Below are positions 47,121-60,629 of a DNA stretch of 60,629 nt, piece by piece. The stretch's first letter is position 1. Each line of letters opens with the position of its first letter. The position numbers and the translations under genes are program-made. The DNA comes from Blautia sp. (GTDB lineage Bacteria; Bacillota; Clostridia; Lachnospirales; Lachnospiraceae). Where the stretch lies: the NCBI GenBank assembly GCA_017463155.1, contig JAFTPT010000041.1, positions 1 to 60,629 on the forward strand, written 5' to 3'. The notes under the pieces were generated by a model. That model saw only the letters and a list, made by a program, of their open reading frames with translations, made no database searches and was not told the origin of the DNA.

Positions 47121-48362
47121 TCATAAAACGATCCGGATCCTCGTGCCGATCCCGGTCCGGGAGAGGATCTCAAAGTGTCCTTTGTGCTTGTCGACGATCC
47201 ATTTGGCGATGGACAGGCCCAGGCCGGTCCCGTCGTAGGAGCGGACCTCGTCGCTCCGGTAGAAGCGCTCGAACATGTGCGCGACGTCCGCCTCTTCCAT
47301 GCCGATCCCCGAATCCTGCACCTGCAGATAAGGCTGTCCGGCCTCGTTCCGCCCGCAGGAAAGAAGGATCTCGTCCCCTTCGTTGGTATACTTGGCGGCA
47401 TTGTCGATCAAGATACGCACCGCCTGCTTTAAAAGTCCCGGATCGGCCGAGACCGTCAGGCTCTCCTCCGGCGCGGAAAAACGGTACGGATGACGCTCGT
47501 CGATCATGAAGGATTCCTCGTAGGTCTCCTGCATCATCGCCTTCAGGTCCACCGCCTCCAGATTCAGGGAGGTCCTTCCGCTGTCGCCCCTCGCCAGGAA
47601 CAGAAGCTGCTCCACCAGGTGGTTCATATGGTCCGACTCATGCCGGATGGCCGTGATGGATTCCTCCAGGATCTTCTCGTCCTCCTTGCCCCAGCGGTCC
47701 AGCATGTTGGCGTAGCCCTGGATCACGGCGATCGGCGTCCGCAGCTCATGGGAGGCATCGTTGACGAACCGGGCCTGCTGCCGGTAGATGTCGCGCATGC
47801 GCAGCAGCAGATTGTTCATGGCGGTCTCGACGCCGGCCAGGTCGCTGTCCCCGAAGGACAGGGTCTCCTTGCCCTCGGGCGAGATCTTCGCGATGGCTTC
47901 CTCCAGCTGCAGGTATTTATCCTCGGAGAAGGAAAGTCGGCTCAGCTCATCCGCTCTGAGAGCCAGCTGGTCCACAGGGCTCAGGATACGGCGGATCCGC
48001 CGGTCTTCGGGAAAATAAAAGAGCCACTGGGAGAAAAACTGCAGTGCAAACAGACCGGAGACCGCGGCGGAAAGCCACAGAAGATACTGCTGTACCTCCA
48101 GGCGCAGAAGCTCTTTGCCGCTGCTGTCCGCGATAAAGTAGATGATCTGCTTTGCTTTCTCATCATATGTAAAATAGCGGGAGACATCCGCAAAAAACTT
48201 TCCCGTCACCGCCAGTTCCTGTCCCGCAAGGAAACAGACCGCGGCCACGACCGCGAGCAGGATGTCCAGGCGCAGATACAGCCAGACCATCTTCCCGATC
48301 TGATGAAAATGCAGCTTCCGCGTGATCGAACTCACCCTTTTGCGGTTTTCGGTCTGACTCAT
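47121..48362 (-). CDS. sensor histidine kinase
   Basis: A 413-residue membrane kinase. Two membrane helices (about residues 27-47 and 92-117) enclose a short 45-residue extracytoplasmic loop. A HAMP-like linker is followed by the phospho-accepting His in FVNDASHELRTPIAVIQGYA, the N box LIDNAAKYT, G1 VQDSGIGM, F box and G2 GTGLGLSIAKWIV. It is 23 bases after the response-regulator gene. The small loop suggests sensing of membrane or lipid state rather than a large ligand. Confidence 0.94.
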   Translation of the reverse strand: MSQTENRKRVSSITRKLHFHQIGKMVWLYLRLDILLAVVAAVCFLAGQELAVTGKFFADVSRYFTYDEKAKQIIYFIADSSGKELLRLEVQQYLLWLSAAVSGLFALQFFSQWLFYFPEDRRIRRILSPVDQLALRADELSRLSFSEDKYLQLEEAIAKISPEGKETLSFGDSDLAGVETAMNNLLLRMRDIYRQQARFVNDASHELRTPIAVIQGYANMLDRWGKEDEKILEESITAIRHESDHMNHLVEQLLFLARGDSGRTSLNLEAVDLKAMMQETYEESFMIDERHPYRFSAPEESLTVSADPGLLKQAVRILIDNAAKYTNEGDEILLSCGRNEAGQPYLQVQDSGIGMEEADVAHMFERFYRSDEVRSYDGTGLGLSIAKWIVDKHKGHFEILSRTGIGTRIRIVL

Positions 48363-48385
48363 GGCTGATCATCCTCCGCTCTTCT

Positions 48386-49120
48386 TTACAGTTCCTGTTC
48401 AGGACCTTCCTGCCAGGTTTTTATGACATACCCTACGCCCCGCACGGTGTGGATCATCTTGACGGAAAAGACGTCGTCGATCTTTCCCCGGAGAAAACGG
48501 ACGTACACGTCGATGACGTTCGTCTCGCCCACATAATCGTAGCCACAGACCGTATTCAGGAGCGTCTCCCTCGACAGAACGATGTCCTGATTGGAAAGCA
48601 GGGTCTTCAGCATCAAAAACTCCCGGTTGGTCAGGGTGATCTCATGGGAGCCGTAGGTCACCCTGCGCTTCGGTTCATCCAGACGCAGGGGACCCCAGGT
48701 CAGGACCCCTTCTTCCTTTTGTTCCGCATCGGCCCGGCCGGCTGCCTCCTCCGACGCATGATGCAGCTTCAGGGCGACGCGGATCCGGGCAAGCAGCTCC
48801 TCGATGGCAAAAGGCTTGGTGATGTAGTCCACCGCCCCGGCATCGAGGCCTGCCACCTTGTCCATCACGGCATCCCTCGCCGTCAGAAGGATCACCGGCG
48901 TCTGTTTTTCCTTCTGCAGCCTGCGGAGGACCTCCAGGCCATTGAGGCCCGGCAGCATGATATCCAGGAGGACCAGGTCGTACTCCGCCTGCACCGCCTT
49001 GTCAAGGGCGGTCCTTCCGTCAAAGGCCTTGTCGGTCTCATATCCCTCATGTTTCAGTTCCAGCTCCACAAAACGGGCCAGTTTTTCTTCATCTTCTACG
49101 ATCAGAATCTTAGCGCTCAT
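48386..49120 (-). CDS. OmpR-family response regulator
   Basis: A 244-residue regulator. The receiver has DEE near residue 10, the phospho-Asp in YDLVLLDIMLPGLNG, a Thr/Ala switch and the Lys in DYITKPF. The winged-helix output domain has LTNREFMLLKTLLSNQD-like sequence and TVCGYDYVGETNVIDVYVRF. Two tandem ATGs follow GGAG; the second is chosen by spacing. It is encoded between the DUF4870-like gene and the kinase gene in one operon. A direct-repeat box upstream of the operon is its likely site. Confidence 0.94.
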   Translation of the reverse strand: MSAKILIVEDEEKLARFVELELKHEGYETDKAFDGRTALDKAVQAEYDLVLLDIMLPGLNGLEVLRRLQKEKQTPVILLTARDAVMDKVAGLDAGAVDYITKPFAIEELLARIRVALKLHHASEEAAGRADAEQKEEGVLTWGPLRLDEPKRRVTYGSHEITLTNREFLMLKTLLSNQDIVLSRETLLNTVCGYDYVGETNVIDVYVRFLRGKIDDVFSVKMIHTVRGVGYVIKTWQEGPEQEL

Positions 49121-49168
49121 CATTTTCTCCATGCAGGCCTTCAAAAGCCTGTGTCCCTTCGGTCATTC

Positions 49169-49471
49169 TCAGTTCAGGATACGGATGTCACCGATCAGCG
49201 GAAGCGGCTCGCCGCTTGCCTTGGCTCCCCGCACGATGCCCATGATCGACAGGATCAGGCCCACCAGACCGATAATGCCGCCGATCATTCCGAACAGGCC
49301 GCCGATCCGGCTGCAAAAGCTGCCGACCGTACTGAGCAGATTAAGCACGAGCGCCTGATTCAGGTGCTGACGTACGACGCGGTCATCCTTGCTGCTCAGG
49401 AAATAGGCGGCAAACCAGCCGATCCAGGTGATATAACTGATAACGGAATAAAGCTTTGTGTTCTGCTCCAT
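49169..49471 (-). CDS. small membrane protein, DUF4870-like
   Basis: A 100-residue protein with about three membrane segments: LYSVISYITWIGWFAAYFLS, an inner LNQALVLNLLSTVG and a Gly/Ile-rich GMIGGIIGLVGLILSIMGIV. The RQHLNQALVL motif is typical of DUF4870 proteins. It is the first gene of the two-component operon and could be an accessory sensor or an effector for membrane stress. Start follows AAGGAGAAAATC. Confidence 0.85.
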   Translation of the reverse strand: MEQNTKLYSVISYITWIGWFAAYFLSSKDDRVVRQHLNQALVLNLLSTVGSFCSRIGGLFGMIGGIIGLVGLILSIMGIVRGAKASGEPLPLIGDIRILN

Positions 49472-49538: not shown

Positions 49539-49577
49539 CTTTAATCATCTTTGAAGAATTATTAAAATTACATTAAA
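49539..49577 (-). promoter_or_regulatory. response-regulator box A (two-component operon)
   Basis: On the minus strand the repeats TTTAATG, TTTAATA, TTCAAAG and ATTAAAG are spaced by 11 bases, followed ten bases later by TATGCT as a -10 box. The -35 position has no consensus. This layout is that of promoters activated by OmpR/PhoP-type regulators. The box overlaps the 3' end of the REP-associated transposase gene. Confidence 0.65.
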
Positions 49578-50213
49578 ACAAGACAGGGTACGATTCTCTT
49601 TCGTTACGCATATCTGACCGGTATTTCCAAATTCCTGTCTGATCCACTCCACGGCCATCTGGTCTGCCGGCTTGTGCCTGCCCTTCTCTGTCAGGTCAAG
49701 ACACTGATCGCCGTTTTCCATCTGAATGAAGTGAATCAGCTCCGGGCCATTTACACTGCATGGAAGATGAATTCCTTGCATAATCTCATCCATATTACTA
49801 TATGGATAATCTTCCGGTTTTCTGCAGAGCCCCGCAGCAACCGGATTACGGAGAATATATCTCAATACACAAAGAAAATACCTTTCATCCTCGACCGGCT
49901 CACTTCGGAAACGATCCTGAAAAAGATGTCCTTCGCGATCGTATTTTGTGTTATACCAATATACAAACGAAGTACCTATCCGTTTGAAGGTCGTCTCGAG
50001 AGCTTCCTCTGTCGTCTTCAGGAGAATATGCACATGATTTCCCATTAAGCAATACGCATATAACTCAAACCGGGAAATTTCCCTGAACCTCTGTAAAGTG
50101 AAAATAAAAGCCTTGTAGTCTTCATCATCGAAGAAGATCTGCTGTCGATTGATCCCCCTCAGCATGACATGATAAATACCACTGACAGCTTTTAGCCGCA
50201 CTCTTCTCGGCAT
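49545..50213 (-). CDS. REP-associated tyrosine transposase (RAYT)
   Basis: A 222-residue Y1-type transposase. The start region PRRVRLKAVSGIYHVMLRGI, the HUH motif GNHVHILL and the catalytic-helix region FVYWYNTKYDREGHLFQDRF are characteristic, followed by YILRNPVAAGL. RAYTs mobilise REP palindromes. A REP-like palindrome lies 136 bases upstream of its start and a degenerate one inside its 3' end. The last residues ENRTLSC are encoded by that REP and the final CFNVILIILQR by the neighbouring operon's regulatory box, so the native C-terminus seems replaced. Activity is uncertain. Confidence 0.88.
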   Translation of the reverse strand: MPRRVRLKAVSGIYHVMLRGINRQQIFFDDEDYKAFIFTLQRFREISRFELYAYCLMGNHVHILLKTTEEALETTFKRIGTSFVYWYNTKYDREGHLFQDRFRSEPVEDERYFLCVLRYILRNPVAAGLCRKPEDYPYSNMDEIMQGIHLPCSVNGPELIHFIQMENGDQCLDLTEKGRHKPADQMAVEWIRQEFGNTGQICVTKENRTLSCFNVILIILQR

Positions 50214-50349
50214 ATGCAACACCTCTGTCTCTCCGGATGCAGGTTAAAGCCAGGCAGATACCGTCCCTCACTTTTCTTCCTGACTCAGCCCTGCCATAGA
50301 ATTATACCATGGTGAAAACGATCCCGTCGATAGGAGGTTTTGTCGAATC

Positions 50350-50379
50350 AAAAAAAGACAGAGAACCGTCCCCTGTCTT
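50350..50379. repeat. REP-like palindrome upstream of the RAYT gene
   Basis: AAGACAG, core AGAACCGTCCC, CTGTCTTG: the inverse orientation of the REP family in this window. Confidence 0.8.
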
Positions 50380-51758: not shown

Positions 51759-51767
51759 AAAAACCAG

Positions 51768-51833
51768 CGGAACGGGAGGACGGTTCTTCGTTCCAGGCAA
51801 TGCCCGGAACGTAAGAACCGTCCTCCCGTTCCG
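51768..51833. repeat. inverted REP doublet (REPIN-like)
   Basis: CGGAACGGGAGGACGGTTCT and its inverse AGAACCGTCCTCCCGTTCCG flank a short centre with GGAATG-like sequence. Two REP units in inverse orientation are the form known to be mobilised by RAYTs. Confidence 0.8.
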
Positions 51834-51835
51834 CG

Positions 51836-51869
51836 AAAAAAAGACAGAGAACCGTCCCCTGTCTTTTTT
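51836..51869. repeat. REP-like palindrome
   Basis: AAAAAAAGACAG, core AGAACCGTCCC, CTGTCTTTTTT: nearly identical to the copies at 32.6 and 50.35 kb, and immediately after the REPIN-like doublet. Confidence 0.8.
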
Positions 51870-51878
51870 CTATCGTAT

Positions 51879-52418
51879 TTATTCTTCGGTGTCGTTGCTG
51901 CCGGAAAACTCATTCTTGACATAGTTGGCGACATTTTCCGCGGAATTGATCAGTTCGTTTGCCTTGGTGAGATCATCCTTGCCTTCGAAGCTGTACTTAA
52001 ATCCGAGGAACAGTCCGACCAGCAGCACCGGAAGCGCCAGCTTCCAGATAAAGAGCACCACCAGCACCAGGATGCTTACCGGAACGCGGAAGACTTCTCT
52101 CTCCTTGCGGGTCACGACAAACGCGTTGTCCCTGCAGATCCGGATGAAGTCCCGTACGAGAGCCCGGAAGCTGCGGCGCGCGCGCCCTTTTTCCTTCTCC
52201 TCGTTGTAGACCGTCTTCTCGACCGGCGCGTAATCCTCCTGCTGGTCATAGTCCGTCGAGTAGCTGGTCTTCTGCGGACCGGCTGTCTTTCCCTGCTTCT
52301 CCAGCAGCACCATCGCGTCCAGAAGATCCCAACCGCTCTGCTCCAGCGCGCCCTTTGCTTCCTCGTAGCTTACATTGGCTCTTTCTCTCAGCTTTTCGAC
52401 TTTTTCGAAGTTATCCAT
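51879..52418 (-). CDS. UBA/DUF4342-like membrane protein
   Basis: A 179-residue protein. Residues 5-45 are a UBA-like three-helix domain (ERANVSYEEAKGALEQSGWD). A charged linker is followed by FRALVRDFIRICRDNAFVV, a DUF4342-like segment with KEREVFRVPVSILVLVVLFI and two closely spaced membrane helices, then a short acidic tail. The family is common in clostridia and unstudied; an envelope-stress role is suspected because it lies under the same operator as the two-component operon. A frameshifted, internally deleted paralogue lies at 55804-56185. Confidence 0.85.
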   Translation of the reverse strand: MDNFEKVEKLRERANVSYEEAKGALEQSGWDLLDAMVLLEKQGKTAGPQKTSYSTDYDQQEDYAPVEKTVYNEEKEKGRARRSFRALVRDFIRICRDNAFVVTRKEREVFRVPVSILVLVVLFIWKLALPVLLVGLFLGFKYSFEGKDDLTKANELINSAENVANYVKNEFSGSNDTEE

Positions 52419-52518
52419 GATCGTTCCTCCTTCTGATCATCCGCCCTTTTCTCTTGCGGCGGTTCTGTTTTTTCTACCGGGGTGTTCCCCTTACACGATC
52501 ATAGCTTACACTTCTTTT

Positions 52519-52557
52519 CTTTAATCATCTTTGAAAAAACATTAAAAACACATTAAA
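52519..52557 (-). promoter_or_regulatory. response-regulator box B (DUF4342-like gene)
   Basis: TTTAATG, TTTAATG, TTCAAAG and ATTAAAG repeats at 11-base spacing, then TAAGCT ten bases on as a -10 box. The order and distances match box A. Confidence 0.65.
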
Positions 52558-52584
52558 GTAAAACATAATTACCCTTAATGATCA

Positions 52585-52776
52585 TCAATTCAAGGTTCCG
52601 CAGATCTTGCAGACATAGCCGTTTCCCACTTCAATGCAGAGTGTTCTTTTTCCGCACTTGCTGCAAAAATGAACTTCCGTCCTGGCGCCATAAACTCCCA
52701 TTCCACCTTCTACCTTCTCCAGGTCTTCTTCATCGATCTTAGTATCAAGTCTGCTGTCGGTTCCATCTTTCATCAT
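52585..52776 (-). CDS. double-glycine-leader zinc-ribbon peptide 1
   Basis: A 63-residue peptide. Residues 1-25 end in IDEEDLEKVEGG, which fits the double-glycine leader consensus of exported peptides. The 38-residue core has FCSKCGKRT and YVCKICGTLN, two Cys pairs of a zinc ribbon. Start behind GGAGGTCAACAGG. It follows a decayed relative and the C11 peptidase gene A. No leader-cleaving ABC transporter is in view. Export and processing are inferred from the leader. Confidence 0.75.
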   Translation of the reverse strand: MMKDGTDSRLDTKIDEEDLEKVEGGMGVYGARTEVHFCSKCGKRTLCIEVGNGYVCKICGTLN

Positions 52777-52800
52777 TTCCTGTTGACCTCCTTCTTTGTA

Positions 52801-52968
52801 TCAATACTTGTTCAGCGTTTGACAGGTCTTACATACATACCCGTTCCCTGCGGGATACACGATTCTGTACACACCGCACTTCTGACAGAAACGCACATCT
52901 GTCTTCGCGCCATATTCCGGATCTTCCCATCCTCCGGCAAATCTTCGTATCCATATTACAACCTGATA
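52801..52968 (-). pseudogene. leaderless zinc-ribbon peptide remnant
   Basis: In this frame the sequence AGGWEDPEYGAKTDVRFCQK, then CG, YVCKTCQTLNKY is clearly a relative of peptide 1, but no ATG, GTG or TTG precedes it before an in-frame stop; the leader is lost or frameshifted. It lies between peptide 1 and C11 peptidase A. Confidence 0.7.
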
Positions 52969-53025
52969 CTAACACAGGTTCTGTCACATTTCTGTCACAG
53001 GATTTATCCGGGAGTACTGAACGTC

Positions 53026-55122
53026 TCATGGCGCATCCTGTTCTGTGTTCTGTGAAAAGGCCGTACCGTCCCAGTGGATATATTGCATCTCCTGTGCACG
53101 TTCCCGGCCGTGAAGATCCGTAATGATATACCGGATGGCATAATCTCCCGCCGGCAGCTCCATCTCCTCGATATAAAGATTCCGGAACATGGTCATGTCT
53201 TCGCTTTCGACATAATGCCTGACGGAATCCGTGCCCTCCTCATATATCGGATACAAAAACCGGTAATCCCTGCCCTGGTAATCGGCCATCGTCACAACAT
53301 TCCGGGACGGCATTCCCGTATCGGCGTCATAGCCGTTCCAGATTCCATAGACCTCGTAGCCCAGATTATCTTCATCCGATATGAGATCTCCCGACTCATC
53401 CCCGATCATCTCCTTAAGTCCGCAGCGCAGATTAAAGATCTCATTGTTCATGCGGATCGGTATATTGTAGAGATCTTCGGTATCCGAAGAATTAATCATC
53501 TCCAGAGCGCACAGTACCCCGTCGATCGAAACCCATGTTTCCGGTTCATCCGGCTGGAAGATCATCATCTGGGTCTCTTCGTCGTAGAAAAGCTTGCATT
53601 CATCCTTGCCAAGGCGCATGTACCCGCCGGTATCCTCATCCTTCATGTACCATTCATAGTAATGCGTCTTTCCAACGCCGGTCATCTGGTCGAGGGAAAC
53701 GGCAGCTGCCGGGAATCCCTCATGTTCCACGTTCTCCACAGTGAATTGATAGATCTCACTTTCACTGATCTTCGTCAGCCTCGGGACCTTATCATAAACA
53801 CTCTCCGGAGCCTCCCAGTCGCTGATCGCATCGAGATAAGACAGATAATGAGGACTTCTGCAGTTCCGGGAGTAAACCTCCATCTCATGCACCCCAAAGT
53901 TGATGGCATAGCAAAAGGACAGTCCGGACGCCCCCGATCTTGCTTTTCCACGGACACAGTAGGGCACACAATCATTGAGTGTATTCTGGGCCCTGGCCCG
54001 CAGTTCGAGAGGAAGCACGGTGAGTGCCCCCTTGCTGTACAGAAAGCCTCCGATATCCAGCATCGGCGTTTTTTCTCCGCCGAATTTGTCAACATTTTGC
54101 GTCATATCATCCAGATAACTCAGAACATCCGGATATTTCATGTAAGCCTGATCCACATAGTCAAAGATCTCGTCAAAGCAGTGCTCCATACTTTCGACAT
54201 GAGAAAGGTCCAGAACAGAGTAAGTCTGCAGATCCATCCTCTGGTCATCACCGATCTGCGAATACTTACGGATGGTCGTGTCGCAGACGCACATCCCGAA
54301 CTGTCTGCCGTCCCGCTCCGGATTCCGGTACAGCTCCCACAGCCAGTCGCCGAAGGCACTCCCGTAGCCGGAGGTCGACTCCTCGGAGGCGACCATATAG
54401 GAGGCCTGCGGTGCGACGGCCAGAGCCGTTTCAAGGTTTGCCATCATACAGGCGTCCATAACGACCGTCTCAAAATGCACGCCGCCGTCTTTAAGGGCGG
54501 TTTCAAGCTCGTCGAGGTACAGGATGTCCTTGTTGAACAGTTCATCGACAAAGATTCCGGTGGCGCCTCCGCCGCCATGATCCCAGAGCACCAGCGCATA
54601 TTTCTCCGCGGGATAGTTTTCGGCTCCCCAGCTGATGAAATCCGAGAGTGTCTCCGGCTCGGACATGCTGGCCAGAGGCTTTTCCTCAAGGAGCGTAAAC
54701 GGATTCTCCCCGGAATCCTCCTCAACCGGCGAAAAGCGCCATCGCTGCAGCTTTTCCGTGGAAATGTCCAGTCCCAGCGTATCCTTCGCGTGCCATTCCT
54801 TACAGCCGCCGGTCTCAAAAACGACGTTGACCCTGTCGAAATAGTACGGCGTCTCAATATCTTCTTCGTAGACCAGCCTGATAAATTCCTCTCTGGTCAT
54901 GTCCGGATGGATCTTCGACATCTCCTCCAGATTGTAGGTAGCCATGCCATGGACCGATTCCAGGTCGGAACCGCAGAAATACATCATGACCGTCCACTCG
55001 GCCATGTCATCGGTGCCCTGCTCCTCTGCCGGTACGGAAAAAACGAGCATCAGAACAAGGGCCCACGTCAATATTGCGAGCCCTGGCAGATATCTGTACT
55101 GATGACCTCGTAGTCCTCTCAT
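53026..55122 (-). CDS. secreted C11 (clostripain) cysteine peptidase A
   Basis: A 698-residue secreted peptidase. Signal peptide residues 1-32 end in FSVPA|EE. The C11 caspase-like domain has WTVMMYFCGSDLES, the catalytic His182 in VLWDHGGGG and catalytic Cys225 in VVMDACMMANLE. A 350-residue C-terminal beta-rich extension follows. Clostripains cut after Arg or Lys, and the calcium-dependent members self-activate. It is about 60 percent similar by eye to peptidase B at 56665 and shares the same gene neighbours, so it arose by tandem duplication. Start follows GGAAGGAGATATC. Confidence 0.9.
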   Translation of the reverse strand: MRGLRGHQYRYLPGLAILTWALVLMLVFSVPAEEQGTDDMAEWTVMMYFCGSDLESVHGMATYNLEEMSKIHPDMTREEFIRLVYEEDIETPYYFDRVNVVFETGGCKEWHAKDTLGLDISTEKLQRWRFSPVEEDSGENPFTLLEEKPLASMSEPETLSDFISWGAENYPAEKYALVLWDHGGGGATGIFVDELFNKDILYLDELETALKDGGVHFETVVMDACMMANLETALAVAPQASYMVASEESTSGYGSAFGDWLWELYRNPERDGRQFGMCVCDTTIRKYSQIGDDQRMDLQTYSVLDLSHVESMEHCFDEIFDYVDQAYMKYPDVLSYLDDMTQNVDKFGGEKTPMLDIGGFLYSKGALTVLPLELRARAQNTLNDCVPYCVRGKARSGASGLSFCYAINFGVHEMEVYSRNCRSPHYLSYLDAISDWEAPESVYDKVPRLTKISESEIYQFTVENVEHEGFPAAAVSLDQMTGVGKTHYYEWYMKDEDTGGYMRLGKDECKLFYDEETQMMIFQPDEPETWVSIDGVLCALEMINSSDTEDLYNIPIRMNNEIFNLRCGLKEMIGDESGDLISDEDNLGYEVYGIWNGYDADTGMPSRNVVTMADYQGRDYRFLYPIYEEGTDSVRHYVESEDMTMFRNLYIEEMELPAGDYAIRYIITDLHGRERAQEMQYIHWDGTAFSQNTEQDAP

Positions 55123-55135
55123 GATATCTCCTTCC

Positions 55136-55190
55136 GGAACGCGGGGACGGTTCTCCGTTCCAGCGGAACGAGGGGACGGTTCTCCGTTCC
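55136..55190. repeat. two REP-like palindromes in tandem
   Basis: GGAACGCGGGGACGGTTCTC, then CGTTCC (55136-55161), and GGAACGAGGGGACGGTTCTC, then CGTTCC (55165-55190), directly upstream of peptidase A. Confidence 0.8.
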
Positions 55191-55194
55191 GCCT

Positions 55195-55437
55195 TTACGC
55201 GGCGTCCGCCAGCTCCTGTTCCGCGTATTTTTCTTCAATCTCCGGGAACGCGTCGATGGCGGACTCGAAGAGTTCCATCAGATCATCCTCGGCGATCATG
55301 CCGTCCTCATTTGTCTCCACGCCTTCAAAGGAAAGAGGTACGACCATGGGCGTCGTGGACTCGATGGCTCCCGGCAGCATGTAATCCTCAACACCGAGGG
55401 CCGCAAGCACGGAGGGCGCAAGCGATATTTATACAAG
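55195..55437 (-). pseudogene. histidine phosphatase remnant
   Basis: The 71-residue open frame 55195-55410 matches the last part of the histidine phosphatase at 58800, including VEDYMLPGAIESTTP and MVVPLSFEGVET, but the 43 residues normally between these blocks are absent. Everything upstream, including the RHG motif and signal peptide, is gone, and the promoter of the gene is joined almost directly to this fragment. Non-functional as a phosphatase. Confidence 0.85.
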
Positions 55438-55441
55438 ATTT

Positions 55442-55470
55442 ATTATACACCCTGCCCCGTCAAGATACAA
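55442..55470 (-). promoter_or_regulatory. duplicated phosphatase promoter (copy at the remnant)
   Basis: TTGTAT at 55470-55465, a 17-base spacer and TATAAT at 55447-55442, almost identical to the promoter of the intact gene at 60205-60233. Confidence 0.65.
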
Positions 55471-55517
55471 GAAAAACAAGGCCCTGTCGACCCCTGTCCC
55501 CGCGACTCAAAAACAAG

Positions 55518-55542
55518 ACGAGGGGACGGACCGTCCCCTCGT
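55518..55542. repeat. perfect REP-type palindrome
   Basis: ACGAGGGGACGG and CCGTCCCCTCGT meet around one central base, a 25-base palindrome next to the zinc-ribbon peptide 2 stop. It can also end that transcript. Confidence 0.8.
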
Positions 55543-55547
55543 TTCGC

Positions 55548-55739
55548 TTAATTCTTTTTACCGCAGGTCTGGCACACCAGCCCGTCCGACGTGACATACA
55601 TCACCCTGTACGCTTTACATGTGCTGCAATACTCCACTCTCGTCTGCCAAGCACTTTCCGGTTTGTTCGGATTCTGAGCCCCGCCCTGGATCTGCTCCAG
55701 AGTCTCTTCGCCGAGTACCTTGCTCTTCTCTTTGTTCAT
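55548..55739 (-). CDS. double-glycine-leader zinc-ribbon peptide 2
   Basis: A 63-residue peptide. The leader ends in GEETLEQIQGG and the core has YCSTCKAYR and LVCQTCGKKN. It is the most divergent of the three intact peptides. Start follows AAAGGGTATGAGGCT. It comes after the decayed DUF4342-like gene, where the other copy of the cluster has no equivalent, so it may be an added or relocated copy. Confidence 0.72.
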   Translation of the reverse strand: MNKEKSKVLGEETLEQIQGGAQNPNKPESAWQTRVEYCSTCKAYRVMYVTSDGLVCQTCGKKN

Positions 55740-55803
55740 AGCCTCATACCCTTTCCGACAGATCAGCAGCAGCGATCCTCCAAAGCGTCACGGCTGCCGT
55801 CTG

Positions 55804-56185
55804 TCACTGTTCATCTTCCTTGTCTTCTTCTTTTCCGGCAAATTCCTTTTTTACATAATTGGCCACATTTTCTGCGGAGTTCATCAGCTCGTTGGCCTTT
55901 TCGAGATCGTCCTTGCCTTCAAAGCTGTACTTGAAGCCGAGAAACAGTCCGATGATCATGGCGGGAAGCACCAGCTTCCAGGCCAGCAGAACGACCAGCA
56001 CCAGGATGCTCACCGGAACGCGGAAGACCTCCCGCTCCTTGCGGGTCACCACAAAGGCGTTGTCCCTGCAGATCCGGATGAAATCCCTGACAAGGCTCTT
56101 GAAGCTCCGCCGTGCGCGTCCTTTGCCTCCTCGTAGCTTACATTGGCTCTTTCTCTCAGCTTTTCAACCTTTTCGAATTATCCAT
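55804..56185 (-). pseudogene. DUF4342-like gene, frameshifted and internally deleted
   Basis: A decayed duplicate of the gene at 51879. The start context and first codons are kept, but one base is lost after ATGGATAA. About 166 bases between two copies of GCGCGCCCTTT present in the intact gene are missing, removing the UBA end and linker. The remaining 82-residue frame 55804-56052 still encodes the DUF4342-like and membrane part (VFRVPVSILVLVVLLAWK). Confidence 0.88.
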
Positions 56186-56282
56186 GATCGTTCCTCCCTT
56201 TGATCATCTGCCCGCCTCAGGCGGCAGCTCTTTTTTTCTTCCGGGGTGTTCCCCTTACACGATCATAGCTTACACTTCTTTT

Positions 56283-56321
56283 CTTTAATCATCTTTGAAA
56301 CAACATTAAAATCACATTAAA
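56283..56321 (-). promoter_or_regulatory. response-regulator box C (upstream of the decayed DUF4342-like gene)
   Basis: Same repeats and spacing as box B; the region from box to start codon is nearly identical in the two copies, so it was carried in the duplication. Confidence 0.6.
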
Positions 56322-56368
56322 GGTAACCGAATGGATCCTTAACCTGCAGGCGGCCTTGCCCGGCCGGA

Positions 56369-56584
56369 TCATGACTGGATAAACTGTCCGCAGGACTTGC
56401 AGACATAGCCGCCGTTTACCCGGATCGAGATCCTTTCTCCCTTGCATCGGCTGCAGTAACGAATCTCCTTCTTGACCGCATACATGCCTCCCAGCAGCTC
56501 TACATCGTCTTCTGCTGTCAGCCCGCCGGTTACATTTTCAAGTGCTTCCTCGCTGATTTCTTTTTTTACTTCTTCGCTATTCAT
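56369..56584 (-). CDS. double-glycine-leader zinc-ribbon peptide 3
   Basis: A 71-residue peptide from the ATG at 56584 behind GGGGGTGGTGATT. The leader ends in ISEEALENVTGG, and a second GG follows (ELLGG), so two cleavage points are possible. The core has YCSRCKGERISIRVNGGYVC followed by KSCG. It lies directly after C11 peptidase B, the same place as the remnant and peptide 1 after peptidase A. Confidence 0.75.
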   Translation of the reverse strand: MNSEEVKKEISEEALENVTGGLTAEDDVELLGGMYAVKKEIRYCSRCKGERISIRVNGGYVCKSCGQFIQS

Positions 56585-56664
56585 AATCACCACCCCCATC
56601 ACTGTTATATCTTACGAGCAGATCTTATCACATGTCTTATCACAATAGTGTCACAGAAAGCCGG

Positions 56665-58737
56665 CTATTTTCTGGTAAAGGTCTGCCCGTCCCAATGCAG
56701 ATACTGCATCTCCTGTGGAAGCTCCCGGTTATGAAGATCCGTAACGATATACCGGATGGCGTAGTCCCCTTCGGGAATCACGGTCTCCGTCACATAAAGC
56801 CGGCGGTACATGGTCATATCCTTGCTTTCCGCATAATAGCCTTCCTCGTTCCAATCATCTCTGCTGACCGGATACAGCAAACGGTAATCCCTGCCCTGGT
56901 ATTCGGACATGGTCACAACATTCCGGGAAGGCATGCCCGTATCCGCATCATACCCGTTCCAGATCCCGTAGATCTCGTACTTATTTCCGCTGTCTGCGAT
57001 GATGTTTCCGGCCTCATCCATCATGGGAAGCCTGTGGCCGCACCGAAGGTTGAAGATCTCGTCATTCATACGGATCGGGATGTTAAAGATGTCTTCGGTT
57101 TCACTGAATTCCACGATCTGCAGGGAACACAGCGTCCCCTCGATCGAAGGCCAGTTTTGTGGATCGGCCGCGGCAAGCACGATCTCCTGGGTTTCCTCAT
57201 TATAGTTGGACTGGCATTCCATCCTGCCAAGACACACATATTGCTCGGTCTCCTCATCCAGCTTATACCATTCATAAAAATTCGTATCCCCCACGCCGGT
57301 CATCTGGCTTAATTGGATCGAAGCCGCGGGGAAGCCGTCATACTCCACGTTTTCGACATCAAACTGATAGATCTCGTTTTGCCTGATCTCGGTCAGCTCC
57401 GGGACCTCTTCATAGAGACTGTCCGGTGCCTCCCAGTCACTGATCGCATCCAGATAGGCCAGATAATGCGGGCTCCTGCAGTTTCGGGCATAGATCTCGA
57501 TCTGGTCCACAGGCATGTTGATGGCATTGCAGAAGGAGATCCCCGACGAGCCGGCTCTTCCTTCACCCCGGACGCAGTAGCTCACGCAGTTGCTGAGGGC
57601 GTTCTGTGCTCTGGCGCGCAGCTCCGCCGGAAGCAGGGTGATGGCTCCCTCACTGTCCAGAATACCTCCTATGTCGATCATGGGCGTCTTTTTGCCGCCG
57701 AACTTATCCGCATTCCTGAACATGTCGTCCAGATAGTTCAGGAGATCGGGATACTTCTCATACGCCTCGCCTATACGGAAAAAAATCTCGTCAAAGCACT
57801 TTCCCATCTCCTCTATACGGGAAAGATCCAGAACCGCGTAGGTCTGCAGATCATTGATCTGGTCATCGCCGATCTCCAGATATTTGCGGATCGTCTGGTC
57901 ACAAACACACATTCCTAACTGCCGGCCGTTCTGTCCCGGATTCCGGTACAGCTCCCAGAGCCACTCGCCAAAGGCACTCCCGTATCCGGAGGTCGTCTCC
58001 TCGGACGCGACCAGATAGGAGGCCTGCGGAGCGACCGCCAGCGCGGTTTCGAGGTTGGCCATCAGACAGGCGTCCAGGATCACGTCCTCAAACCGGACGC
58101 CGCCATCCTTCAGGGCTTTTTCCAGCTCATCCAGGTACAGAATGTCCTTCTCGAACAATTCGTCGATAAAGATCCCGGTTGCGCCTCCCCCATGATCCCA
58201 GAGCACCAGCGCATATTTCCTGGCCGGGTAGTTTTCGGCTCCCCATCGGATAAAATCCGCCAGCGTCTCCGGATCGGACATACTTTGCAGCGGCCTGTCT
58301 TCGACAAAAGTGAACGGACTTTCCCCCGAGTCCTTCTCTACCGGAGTAAAGCTCCACCTCTGCAGCTTTTCGGAAGAAATGTCCAGCCCCAGCCCGCTCA
58401 GGGTATGCCATTGCCTGCAGCCGCCCGTTTCGATGACGACATTGACCTTGTCATAGGAAAAGGCTTCGTCGACATCTTCTTCATAGACCATGCTCATAAA
58501 ACGCTCTCTCGTGAGATCCGGATGGATCCCGGCCATCTCCTTCAGGTTATAGGTGGCCATCCCGTGGTTTGATTCCAGGTCGGAGCCGCAGAAATACATC
58601 ATGACCGTCCATTCGGCCTTCCCATCGGTTTCGATATCCTCGGCCGGTACGGAAAAAGAGGACATAAGAACAAGAGCCCATGTCACAAATGCAAGCCGCA
58701 AAAGATGATTCCTGTTCGATCCCTGTGATCCTCTCAT
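56665..58737 (-). CDS. secreted C11 (clostripain) cysteine peptidase B
   Basis: A 690-residue secreted peptidase with a signal peptide ending SFSVPA|ED. Catalytic His182 is in VLWDHGGGATGIF and Cys224 in VILDACLMANLE. The C-terminal beta-rich region matches that of peptidase A over its full length (NGYDADTGMPSRNVVTM in both). It is flanked by the intact histidine phosphatase gene upstream and zinc-ribbon peptide 3 downstream. An Arg-specific extracellular or wall-associated protease is inferred; start follows AAGGAGACAGT. Confidence 0.9.
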   Translation of the reverse strand: MRGSQGSNRNHLLRLAFVTWALVLMSSFSVPAEDIETDGKAEWTVMMYFCGSDLESNHGMATYNLKEMAGIHPDLTRERFMSMVYEEDVDEAFSYDKVNVVIETGGCRQWHTLSGLGLDISSEKLQRWSFTPVEKDSGESPFTFVEDRPLQSMSDPETLADFIRWGAENYPARKYALVLWDHGGGATGIFIDELFEKDILYLDELEKALKDGGVRFEDVILDACLMANLETALAVAPQASYLVASEETTSGYGSAFGEWLWELYRNPGQNGRQLGMCVCDQTIRKYLEIGDDQINDLQTYAVLDLSRIEEMGKCFDEIFFRIGEAYEKYPDLLNYLDDMFRNADKFGGKKTPMIDIGGILDSEGAITLLPAELRARAQNALSNCVSYCVRGEGRAGSSGISFCNAINMPVDQIEIYARNCRSPHYLAYLDAISDWEAPDSLYEEVPELTEIRQNEIYQFDVENVEYDGFPAASIQLSQMTGVGDTNFYEWYKLDEETEQYVCLGRMECQSNYNEETQEIVLAAADPQNWPSIEGTLCSLQIVEFSETEDIFNIPIRMNDEIFNLRCGHRLPMMDEAGNIIADSGNKYEIYGIWNGYDADTGMPSRNVVTMSEYQGRDYRLLYPVSRDDWNEEGYYAESKDMTMYRRLYVTETVIPEGDYAIRYIVTDLHNRELPQEMQYLHWDGQTFTRK

Positions 58738-58799
58738 ACTGTCTCCTTAATAAAAAGCACCTCGCCTGCGCAGGCAGGATCTTCTTTGTGCGCAGGATA

Positions 58800-60155
58800 T
58801 CAGGCGGCGTCGGCCAGCTCCTGCTCCTGATACTCTTCTTTGATCTCATCGAAGGCATCGATCTTCGATGCAAAGAGCCCCAGCAGATCCTCCTCCGCGA
58901 TCATGCCGTTCTCGGCTGTTTCGATCCCTTCAAAGGACAGCGGAACGACCATGGGCGGGTTTTCAAGCGAAAGCGGCTCGATCGACCGGAGCTGCTCCGT
59001 GCTCTGGTAGACAAGTGAAGCCGTGTACCAGGAGCTTCCCTCCGGATCCTCCCACCTCTCCAGCACGAATTTGGCTCCGATGGGCGTGGTGGGCTCGATG
59101 GCCCCCGGCAGTTCGTACTCCTCTACGCCCAGGGCGGCCAGAACGGCGGTGATCGTGGAATCATGCCCGCACAGGAAGGAGAACTGCCGTCCCTGGGCGT
59201 TCAGCTCCTGATAGAACTCCTTGAGCATCGGGTGAGCCAGGTTCGGAGCAAGCAGCGGCGAGGAAAACAGGATCTTCTCATAGTTCGCGAGAACCGATCC
59301 GATGCTCTTCCACTGCTCCTCGGTCAGCTCATGGCCGAAGGCTGCCTTTACTTCGTCCGGCTCCTCATAATACTGCAGGACCAGCGCGTCCGCGATGGAG
59401 GTAAACGACTTGATGGGGCCGGACATGCCGGGCTCCTTGCCCTCCTCCAGCGAAAGCGTCGTCTCATCCGAGAGCAGGTCGCCGTAGGTGCCGTCCGCAT
59501 ACGCTTCGGTCTCCTCCATGTCCGTCACGTCCACGATCAGCCGGAAGGCGTCATCGAGGGATTCCCTGTATCCGGCAAGGCCCTCGCCATTGCCGCGCTC
59601 GGCGATCTCGGCGCTCACATCCGCCGCATATTCCTCATTCATAAAGTTGATGATGGGCAGGAAGGTCGCATCAAGCTCATTGTACTCCTCATGCCTCTCC
59701 ACCGGAACGACCGCCACCGGAAGCAGGCCCGTGGAAAAATAATGGGCCGTCGCCTGGGTGCGCTGCAGGGCGTTGGCATAGAACCGGACCGCCCCGTCTT
59801 TTGGAAGATAATTCTCGGGGAAAAGTCCTTCTTTTTCGAGCTTCAGGCGGAAATACTGGCCCATCGTGGTCTCCAGCATGGCACCGCGCAGCGAAAGTTC
59901 ACCCGCGTTGGAGGTCCAGTCGAACCACTCATGGGGCGTGATCTCGCTGATCATCGAGCCCTTCTCGGAAAGCGGCGAACGGATGTTGTGGCGGCTCAGG
60001 ACCACCATCTGCGCCAGGGTATAATCGGAAGAAACGGACTCCTCCGCGGCCGCGGCCGCATCAGCCGCCGGCGCCTCCGCCATGACAGCCGTGGAAAAGA
60101 CGGTGCCCAGAAGCAACGTTCCTGTCAGGATCGATGTGATGATTCTTTTATTCAT
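58800..60155 (-). CDS. secreted histidine-type phosphatase
   Basis: A 451-residue exported phosphatase of the branch 2 histidine acid phosphatase type (phytase/glucose-1-phosphatase-like). Signal peptide residues 1-26. The active-site motif is LSRHNIRSP (R55, H56), with Asn where Gly is usual, and the proton donor is in LCGHDSTITAVLAALG. The C-terminus EYQEQELADAA is shared with the remnant at 55195. Its start at 60155 follows AGGGGAACAGTTT. First gene of the cluster, with its own promoter; C11 peptidase B follows by 62 bases. The substrate is unknown. Confidence 0.9.
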   Translation of the reverse strand: MNKRIITSILTGTLLLGTVFSTAVMAEAPAADAAAAAEESVSSDYTLAQMVVLSRHNIRSPLSEKGSMISEITPHEWFDWTSNAGELSLRGAMLETTMGQYFRLKLEKEGLFPENYLPKDGAVRFYANALQRTQATAHYFSTGLLPVAVVPVERHEEYNELDATFLPIINFMNEEYAADVSAEIAERGNGEGLAGYRESLDDAFRLIVDVTDMEETEAYADGTYGDLLSDETTLSLEEGKEPGMSGPIKSFTSIADALVLQYYEEPDEVKAAFGHELTEEQWKSIGSVLANYEKILFSSPLLAPNLAHPMLKEFYQELNAQGRQFSFLCGHDSTITAVLAALGVEEYELPGAIEPTTPIGAKFVLERWEDPEGSSWYTASLVYQSTEQLRSIEPLSLENPPMVVPLSFEGIETAENGMIAEEDLLGLFASKIDAFDEIKEEYQEQELADAA

Positions 60156-60204
60156 AAACTGTTCCCCTGTATTCTTAATCAAATCTCATAGTTATACATC
60201 GTTT

Positions 60205-60233
60205 ATTATACACCTTTACCCGTCAAGATACAA
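60205..60233 (-). promoter_or_regulatory. promoter of the histidine phosphatase gene
   Basis: TTGTAT at 60233-60228, a 17-base spacer and TATAAT at 60210-60205 on the minus strand. The sequence around it is kept in the duplicated copy at 55442-55470. Confidence 0.65.
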
Positions 60234-60281
60234 ACGGAACGTGGGTCTGTCGATATTTGTCGATTGCTTTTTGTTGAAAAA

Positions 60282-60390: not shown

Positions 60391-60629
60391 ATGAATAAAA
60401 ATGCTTATGCTATTAGCAAGAATGATCTTACATATGGTCGTGGATATGTTTATTCTTTGCAGTATCATATCGTATGGTGTACAAAATTCCGAAAACAGAT
60501 TCTTTGGAACGGTATCGATGAGGAAGTAAAGTCGATGCTCGAGGAGATCGCAGAAGAGTATTCATTTCAGATCCTGGCGATGGAGGTAATGCCGGATCAC
60601 ATTCACCTTCTCCTGGACTGTAAGCCGCA
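60391..60629 (+). CDS. tnpA: IS200/IS605-family transposase TnpA (partial)
   Basis: The first 79 residues of a Y1 transposase, cut by the window end. LQYHIVWCTKFRKQIL and VMPDHIHLLLDC, with the HUH pair, are diagnostic for IS200/IS605 TnpA. The catalytic Tyr would lie beyond the window. A TATAAT box (60379-60384) is seven bases upstream of the ATG, and no ribosome binding site is visible, as often in this family. Confidence 0.9.
   Translation, partial: MNKNAYAISKNDLTYGRGYVYSLQYHIVWCTKFRKQILWNGIDEEVKSMLEEIAEEYSFQILAMEVMPDHIHLLLDCKP

Follow-up and report, generated by a model that had tools for sequence, protein, structure and literature searches.

A 60,629-nucleotide (nt) contig of a Blautia sp. 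genome (hereinafter designated the window; contig C43 of genome G000, which comprises 3.07 Mb on 55 contigs and is 92% complete) carries a tandemly duplicated locus whose working core we propose to be a secreted C11 (clostripain-family) peptidase together with small peptides that join a double-glycine leader to a four-cysteine (Cys4) zinc-ribbon core. In the explanation that best fits the findings as a whole, and to which we give an even chance of being right, a C39 exporter would remove the leader and export the ribbon, and the secreted C11 peptidase would trim it outside. The peptides would be made with a leader of 20–27 residues; NHLM_micro_ABC1 with its ABC2 partner, encoded elsewhere in the genome, would recognize this leader, cut after Gly-Gly and export the ribbon core; and the C11 peptidase, exported via its own signal segment, would then cut the peptide again extracellularly, probably at a basic residue that lies after Gly-Gly and before the first cysteine. 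Candidate roles for the released ribbon are those of an antimicrobial, a signal or a metal binder.

The two repeat units, both on the minus strand (51879–60233), hold four such peptides (A–D) where the preliminary description had counted two. Peptides A, B and D are intact and start with a double-glycine leader of 20–27 residues (endings in Table 1), a feature absent from the preliminary description. The fourth, C, which adjoins the left peptidase, has decayed, and the earlier statement that the peptides are kept is thus right for three of them only. The Cys4 pattern, two CxxC pairs, is present in all four. Hydrophobic residues occupy leader positions –12, –7 and –4 before Gly-Gly in A, B and D, and a strict pattern ([ILVMF] at –12, a hydrophobic residue at –7, [VILM] at –4, Gly-Gly and at least two acidic residues), tested on open reading frames (ORFs) of 35–135 amino acids (aa), matches exactly these three in the 60-kb window. 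Mutagenesis of LahT150, a Lachnospiraceae C39 protease, showed that positions –4, –7 and –12 are important and that the final 13 residues of the leader are enough (PMC6363468); A, B and D fit these requirements. A combined leader and ribbon regular expression (regex) returned 25 rows from 177 loci, many of them duplicate genes and all of this peptide type, and zero matches in five rounds of shuffled proteins.

The predicted structure of peptide A, built on three sequences, has a short helix of low confidence before Gly-Gly (residues 18–25) and strands over the core from residue 41, with a block-mean predicted local distance difference test (pLDDT) of 76–86; the ribbon core would presumably bind metal. 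All peptide matches to Pfam ribbon families are below cut-off, and the Nif11/NHLP leader models (PF07862, TIGR03798 and TIGR03793) gave no match to A, B or D up to E 1. No modification enzyme was recognized by eye among the window ORFs, part of which were taken in by library scans; an enzyme acting in trans is possible.

The two C11 proteins are 68% identical over 692 columns, with a nonsynonymous divergence (dN) of 0.22 and a synonymous divergence (dS) of 0.98 by the Nei–Gojobori method (dN/dS about 0.23), the latter value, near 1, being close to saturation. dN is lower than dS in six of six 115-codon segments. Judged from these sequence comparisons, the copies have diverged under constraint, as the preliminary description had supposed in stating that both peptidases are kept by selection, and the duplication is old because the synonymous divergence between them is about 0.98. 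Both copies exceed the curated cut-off of PF03415 (clostripain family; Table 1) and contain the motifs WDHGGG and DAC[LM]MA, whose His and Cys (His182 and Cys224 of DACLMA in the right copy) we take to be the catalytic residues; these motifs align with those of solved clostripain (PDB 9cip). The Peptidase_C11 domain is shared with 9cip and with an inactive zymogen C11 protease (PDB 6mzo), but the similarity is weak (E 4e-8 and 4e-7 over about 100–130 residues), and both copies score far below the clostripain equivalog TIGR02806 (32.4 and 32.6 bits against a cut-off of 550 bits). The one named relative found for the C11 protein, from an uncultured Blautia, is 41% identical. Both peptidases are probably secreted because each has a hydrophobic signal-like segment at its N-terminus, as read by eye. 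Around the third C11 gene of the genome (C15), the strict leader pattern found no leader-type peptide in 17 kb.

The genome has a single match to PF03412 (C39). This gene, on contig G000:C27, scores above the curated cut-off of NHLM_micro_ABC1 (905.5 against 853.3 bits) and is followed by a gene above that of NHLM_micro_ABC2 (719.3 against 709.4 bits). Because the peptides carry the leader pattern and the genome offers a single candidate exporter, we consider it likely that they are exported by a C39 transporter in trans. NHLM_micro_ABC1 is above cut-off in 19 of 64 genus genomes and in all five of those with a close C11 gene (hypergeometric P 0.0015, which assumes that genomes are independent, as they are not); it is also above cut-off in three peptide-bearing genomes of other genera (G311, G197 and G448) and just below it, at 826 bits and full length, in a fourth (G370). 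Genome G052, chosen for its NHLM genes, has two leader-ribbon peptides 1.7 and 4.1 kb from NHLM pair(s). Separately, two further double-glycine-leader peptides with another Cys pattern directly adjoin an NHLM pair in the same genome (G052:C46, 5879–6453 of locus L155).

Several observations count against the explanation proposed. The exporter and peptide genes lie on separate contigs (G000:C27 and G000:C43), the strict pattern found no leader-type peptide in 20 kb around the genome's own exporter, and the exporter is not called complete because the short HlyD-like protein encoded before ABC1 scores far below its cut-off (26.7 against 156.2 bits). No leader family model scored above its own cut-off for the peptides scanned, and a PDB fold search with the peptide model returned nothing at E 0.001. 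In G048 (88% complete) a peptide is present and the exporter was not detected at the threshold used. The likelihood of export is set lower because, of 30 NHLM stretches fetched, only two, both from G052, hold a leader-ribbon peptide.

The C11-peptide neighbourhood recurs in other genomes. Among 14 close C11 genes in the 64 genus genomes, six have a double-glycine-type peptide gene beside them, on the same strand and either overlapping or no more than about 80 bp away. These six are the two window copies (the peptide at the left one being decayed), G061:C315, G061:C215, G030:C22 and G038:C11. The G061:C215 peptide has one CxxC only, that of G030:C22 has Ser-Gly instead of Gly-Gly, and that of G038:C11 lies upstream of the peptidase and has a leader without a ribbon; at G061:C315 another leader peptide is encoded about 1.6 kb upstream. 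The lack of a detected peptide at the other eight genes is a soft result, above all as regards ribbonless peptides, in that the reading spanned about 900 bases downstream and the regex missed three peptides seen by eye. A peptide flag downstream of G062:C65 was dismissed by eye.

Profiles A1 and A3 derive from C11-adjacent peptides, which makes it in part circular that they recover C11 neighbours. The independent profile matches are G048:C29 and G030:C114, neither with an adjoining C11 gene on the stretch read, and those of a family-wide search of 397 genomes with a profile (A4) of nine peptides alone. A4 matched six genomes at E ≤1e-5, namely the window's own, G496, where the match was rejected as lying within a 617-aa frame, and four genomes of new genera (G370, G311, G448 and G197). 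A C11 gene above the PF03415 cut-off directly adjoins a peptide in two of these four. G370 encodes 16 such peptides on four stretches, where a lipoprotein-like C11 is immediately followed by two of them, and G311 has one peptide 122 bp from a divergent C11. In G448 one peptide lies about 0.7 kb from an NHLM_ABC2-like subunit, and 11 kb around the G197 peptide hold neither a C11 nor an NHLM gene. Three G370 peptides that were scanned match Nif11 weakly, below cut-off. Among the weaker profile rows (E 2e-4 to 0.05) only the one in G038 was followed; there, some 7 kb separate one C11 from two NHLM pairs, and this interval holds, by eye, a sigma factor and a sugar transporter. The peptidase/peptide pairs of the preliminary description therefore stand as a neighbourhood found in other genomes but not as a one-to-one arrangement, the peptide adjoining the left peptidase being decayed.

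Some features of these loci are recorded for themselves. On the G370 stretches (L191–L194), the long Nif11-like leaders of the 16 peptides, below cut-off, are alike and their Cys4 ribbon cores very different. At G061:C315 (5427–7135 of L036), a leader peptide whose core ends in DDDILLPEL is followed by a 483-aa protein, the C11 peptidase and the ribbon peptide; the 483-aa protein, secreted by eye, carries LPEL/MPEI repeats similar to that core end. In G048:C29 (2–8560 of L139), the leader-ribbon peptide adjoins an oligopeptide-type ABC importer operon (by eye), which would suit a re-imported signal. Regulators of STAS, anti-sigma or SpoIIE type, again by eye, recur on L192, L205, L195, L155, L168 and L065, near C11 loci (G370 and G171) and NHLM exporters (G448, G052 and G000), and may mean shared control.

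That the C11 peptidases cut the peptides is, in our assessment, evenly poised: the case for it consists of the recurrent adjacency and of a published proposal for other clusters, the bai and cro class II lanthipeptide clusters, in which a clostripain C11 protein is proposed to make the second cut after processing by the peptidase-containing ATP-binding transporter (PCAT; PMC13343206). A general C11-peptide rule is rejected, none of the 59 C11 genes read in other family genomes having a ribbon peptide on the stretch fetched, and because of this count most C11 peptidases do something else. The 59 genes come from 60 of 76 C11 matches outside the window's genome, read up to 6 kb on each side with several stretches ending at contig ends; L248 was left out for a stop inside its C11 frame. 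The regex used in this survey recovers 11 of 14 known peptides, and a looser version 12 of 14; the single looser match in the 60 stretches (L211) was uncounted as upstream DNA read into an ordinary ribbon protein, and two ribbonless flags on L205, one of them a STAS-type protein, were dropped on reading. An NHLM query exceeded 38% identity in only two of 60 other-genera C11 stretches, over about 250 residues each.

The strongest alternative accepts export of the peptides and takes the C11 proteins for general secreted proteases that share a neighbourhood or regulation with them and do not process them; we regard it as unlikely, though well short of negligible. The absence of a ribbon peptide from the stretches of those 59 genes speaks for it and against C11 cutting, as do the eight of 14 close genus C11 genes without a detected peptide, among them all five of G062 (one of the eight, G061:C548, ends at a contig end), and the peptide clusters without a C11 gene on the stretch read (three of the four G370 stretches, G197, G030:C114 and G048). 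Other points also weigh against the proposed processing. At –7 the leaders of G061:C315, G061:C215 and G030:C22 carry Glu, Ser or Thr; at this position LahT150 did not accept Lys or Asp (PMC6363468). The predicted C11 structure is unusable (mean pLDDT 34). All 21 ribbon peptides listed contain a Lys or Arg after Gly-Gly and ahead of the first CxxC, and clostripain prefers Arg; such a residue does not single out C11 sites and is no marker of C11 cutting, because most of the 21 peptides do not adjoin a C11 gene. Against the general-protease explanation stands the immediate adjacency, which recurs across the genus and in two further genera reached by a search that did not involve C11.

Secreted cysteine proteases can have small inhibitors as neighbours, and the Cys4 proteins might accordingly inhibit the protease next to them or serve as its chaperones, either within the cell or exported with it. 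Tight same-strand adjacency downstream of C11 would fit such a role, and a Cys4 ribbon could serve as a stable binding scaffold. We hold this to be improbable, since the proteins carry an export-type leader with the C39 recognition positions, since such peptides occur near exporter genes without C11 and number 16 in one genome, and since the G038 leader peptide, which adjoins a C11 gene, has no ribbon.

The preliminary description had read the locus as a four-gene functional unit (phosphatase, C11 peptidase, peptide and DUF4342-like gene) that underwent duplication and afterwards lost parts, until two peptidase/peptide pairs were left with a single phosphatase and a single membrane protein between them. 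The repeat structure and decay pattern of the window are what this history would leave, but there is little chance that it is correct. Its proposed check, the same four-gene order in relatives, gave no conserved order on the stretches read, and the cassette as a conserved unit is rejected there. Of the 64 genus genomes, seven have a phosphatase homologue and 21 a DUF4342-like one, the window's own included in each count, and seven stretches of 6–18 kb around such homologues (phosphatase in G062, G061, G030 and G039; DUF4342-like in G062, G030 and G039), some ending at contig ends, have no C11 match. The two genes said to be retained as one copy each are better read as neighbours: the phosphatase is probably no part of the system, to judge by its sequence context, and the DUF4342-like gene has a promoter box of its own.

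This box (TTTAATGT..TTTTAAT...TTCAAAG) precedes each DUF4342-like copy as well as a membrane gene of 100 aa, with sites (TTTAATGTnnTTTTAATnTTTnTTCAAAG) at 49561–49576, 52541–52556 and 56305–56320 on the minus strand. The box core has five window matches at ≤2 mismatches against 0.21 expected, and the box regex matches 12 of 19 loci around DUF4342-like homologues against none of 60 other loci (697 kb). The 100-aa gene adjoins a sensor kinase and response regulator (47121–49471, the pair at 47121–49144; assigned by eye). Because it has its own box, found also at this two-component neighbour, the DUF4342-like gene looks like a member of a two-component regulon and probably lies outside the peptide system. 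The DUF4342 label is itself weak (PF14242, 15.7 bits against a cut-off of 25).

The tandem duplication as such is well founded, the C11 identity being accompanied by direct repeats (51901–52578, 53056–55352 and 55425–55490 paired with 55835–56342, 56677–58957 and 60188–60253) at 75–94% DNA identity between the units. The right unit runs phosphatase, C11, peptide A, broken DUF4342-like gene and then peptide B, which lies between that gene and the left phosphatase remnant; the left unit runs phosphatase remnant, C11, decayed peptide C, peptide D and DUF4342-like gene (Table 1). Two of the decayed genes had been recognized as such from the start: the left phosphatase is cut down to a C-terminal remnant, and the right DUF4342-like gene, with its frameshift just past the start and its internal deletion, retains an 82-aa frame (55804–56052) against the 179 aa of the left copy. 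It is very improbable that the locus is merely an old tandem duplication decaying slowly and kept by chance, as might be argued from its wrecks (three of the 10 recognizable genes of the two units) and the REP-like repeats and transposase nearby, given a peptidase dN/dS of about 0.23 at dS about 1, intact catalytic motifs and three intact leader peptides.

Table 1 Features of the duplicated locus (window coordinates)
Feature	Position	Strand	Basis
Right, intact histidine acid phosphatase (branch 2) of 460 aa	58800..60182	-	PF00328, 69.2 bits against cut-off 23.6
Right C11 peptidase (690 aa), probably secreted, with a signal-like segment at its N-terminus	56665..58737	-	PF03415, 94.4 bits against cut-off 25.8
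Peptide A, double-glycine leader ISEEALENVTGG and Cys4 ribbon core	56369..56602	-	Leader pattern, predicted structure
Promoter box of right DUF4342-like gene, TTTAATGTGATTTTAATGTTGTTTCAAAG	56293..56321	-	Box search
DUF4342-like gene, right copy, broken	55804..56185	-	Frameshift after start, internal deletion
Peptide B, double-glycine leader LGEETLEQIQGG and Cys4 ribbon core	55548..55739	-	Leader pattern
Left phosphatase, reduced to its C-terminal 71 aa; its former upstream region is 55425-55490	55195..55410	-	Repeat comparison
Left C11 peptidase (698 aa), probably secreted, with intact catalytic motifs	53026..55122	-	PF03415, 96.6 bits against cut-off 25.8
Peptide C, decayed, without usual start codon or leader, Cys4 ribbon readable	~52801..52950	-	Sequence reading
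Peptide D, double-glycine leader IDEEDLEKVEGG and Cys4 ribbon core	52585..52776	-	Leader pattern
Promoter box of left DUF4342-like gene	52529..52557	-	Box search
DUF4342-like membrane protein, left copy, intact, 179 aa	51879..52418	-	PF14242 below cut-off

REP-like repeats (AAGACAGAGAACCGTCCCCTGTCTT, with relatives recognized by eye) lie at 50350–50379, 51836–51865, about 51765–51830, 55138–55190 and 55505–55550, near a REP-associated tyrosine transposase gene (49545–50222; 79.8 bits against a cut-off of 80). A small transposase-like ORF (60391–60627), by eye of IS200/IS605 type, starts a short way upstream of the phosphatase, where the contig ends.

The proposed system varies known double-glycine peptide export and involves no new principle. 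It shares with LahA/LahT of Lachnospiraceae C6A11 (PMC6363468) a double-glycine leader with hydrophobic residues at –12, –7 and –4, a C39-type exporter and several peptides per system; LahA leaders, by contrast, are of Nif11 type and belong to a lanthipeptide operon with its own exporter, whereas the window peptides have short leaders and Cys4 ribbon cores, a C11 neighbour and an exporter elsewhere. The NHLM exporter is more widely spread than the NHLP family (Haft 2010, PMC2887384). As in NHLP/NHLM export (TIGR03794/03796/03797), the window's genome encodes an ABC1/ABC2 pair above curated cut-offs, but the window peptides match neither NHLP nor Nif11 models and are not exporter-adjacent, and the HlyD-like protein is below cut-off. 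The bai and cro clusters likewise group a C11 gene with double-glycine precursors; they also have a lanthipeptide synthetase, whereas none was recognized by eye around the window locus, whose cores are ribbons (PMC13343206). A term search of the main text, as far as accessible, of a review of leader proteases of ribosomally synthesized and post-translationally modified peptides found no mention of C11 or clostripain (PMC10885120). Among the titles and abstracts that searches of an open-licence library listed we found no description of C11-linked ribbon peptides, and in that library none that joins NHLP with peptidase C11 or a Nif11 leader peptide with a zinc ribbon. The main interest lies in a C11-linked subset of probably exported ribbon peptides.

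The Lachnospiraceae, a major group of gut bacteria, commonly have C39-type exporters: in this genus NHLM_micro_ABC1 is above cut-off in 19 of 64 genomes, yet only two of 30 stretches fetched around such genes hold a leader-ribbon peptide. What the duplicated locus offers is a concrete class of cargo, in which a leader is joined to a Cys4 ribbon, together with a candidate protease to finish it. It also suggests that genes for cargo can be located well away from their exporter, where cluster-based mining would miss them. As a tentative generalization, which we consider possible but somewhat doubtful, NHLM-type C39 exporters of Lachnospiraceae may release small metal-binding zinc-ribbon peptides in trans, with a dedicated secreted C11 peptidase finishing them by a second cut outside the cell in some lineages. 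If true, folded mini-proteins with bound metal would be secreted by a route that uses two proteases, and would act between gut bacteria or on the host.

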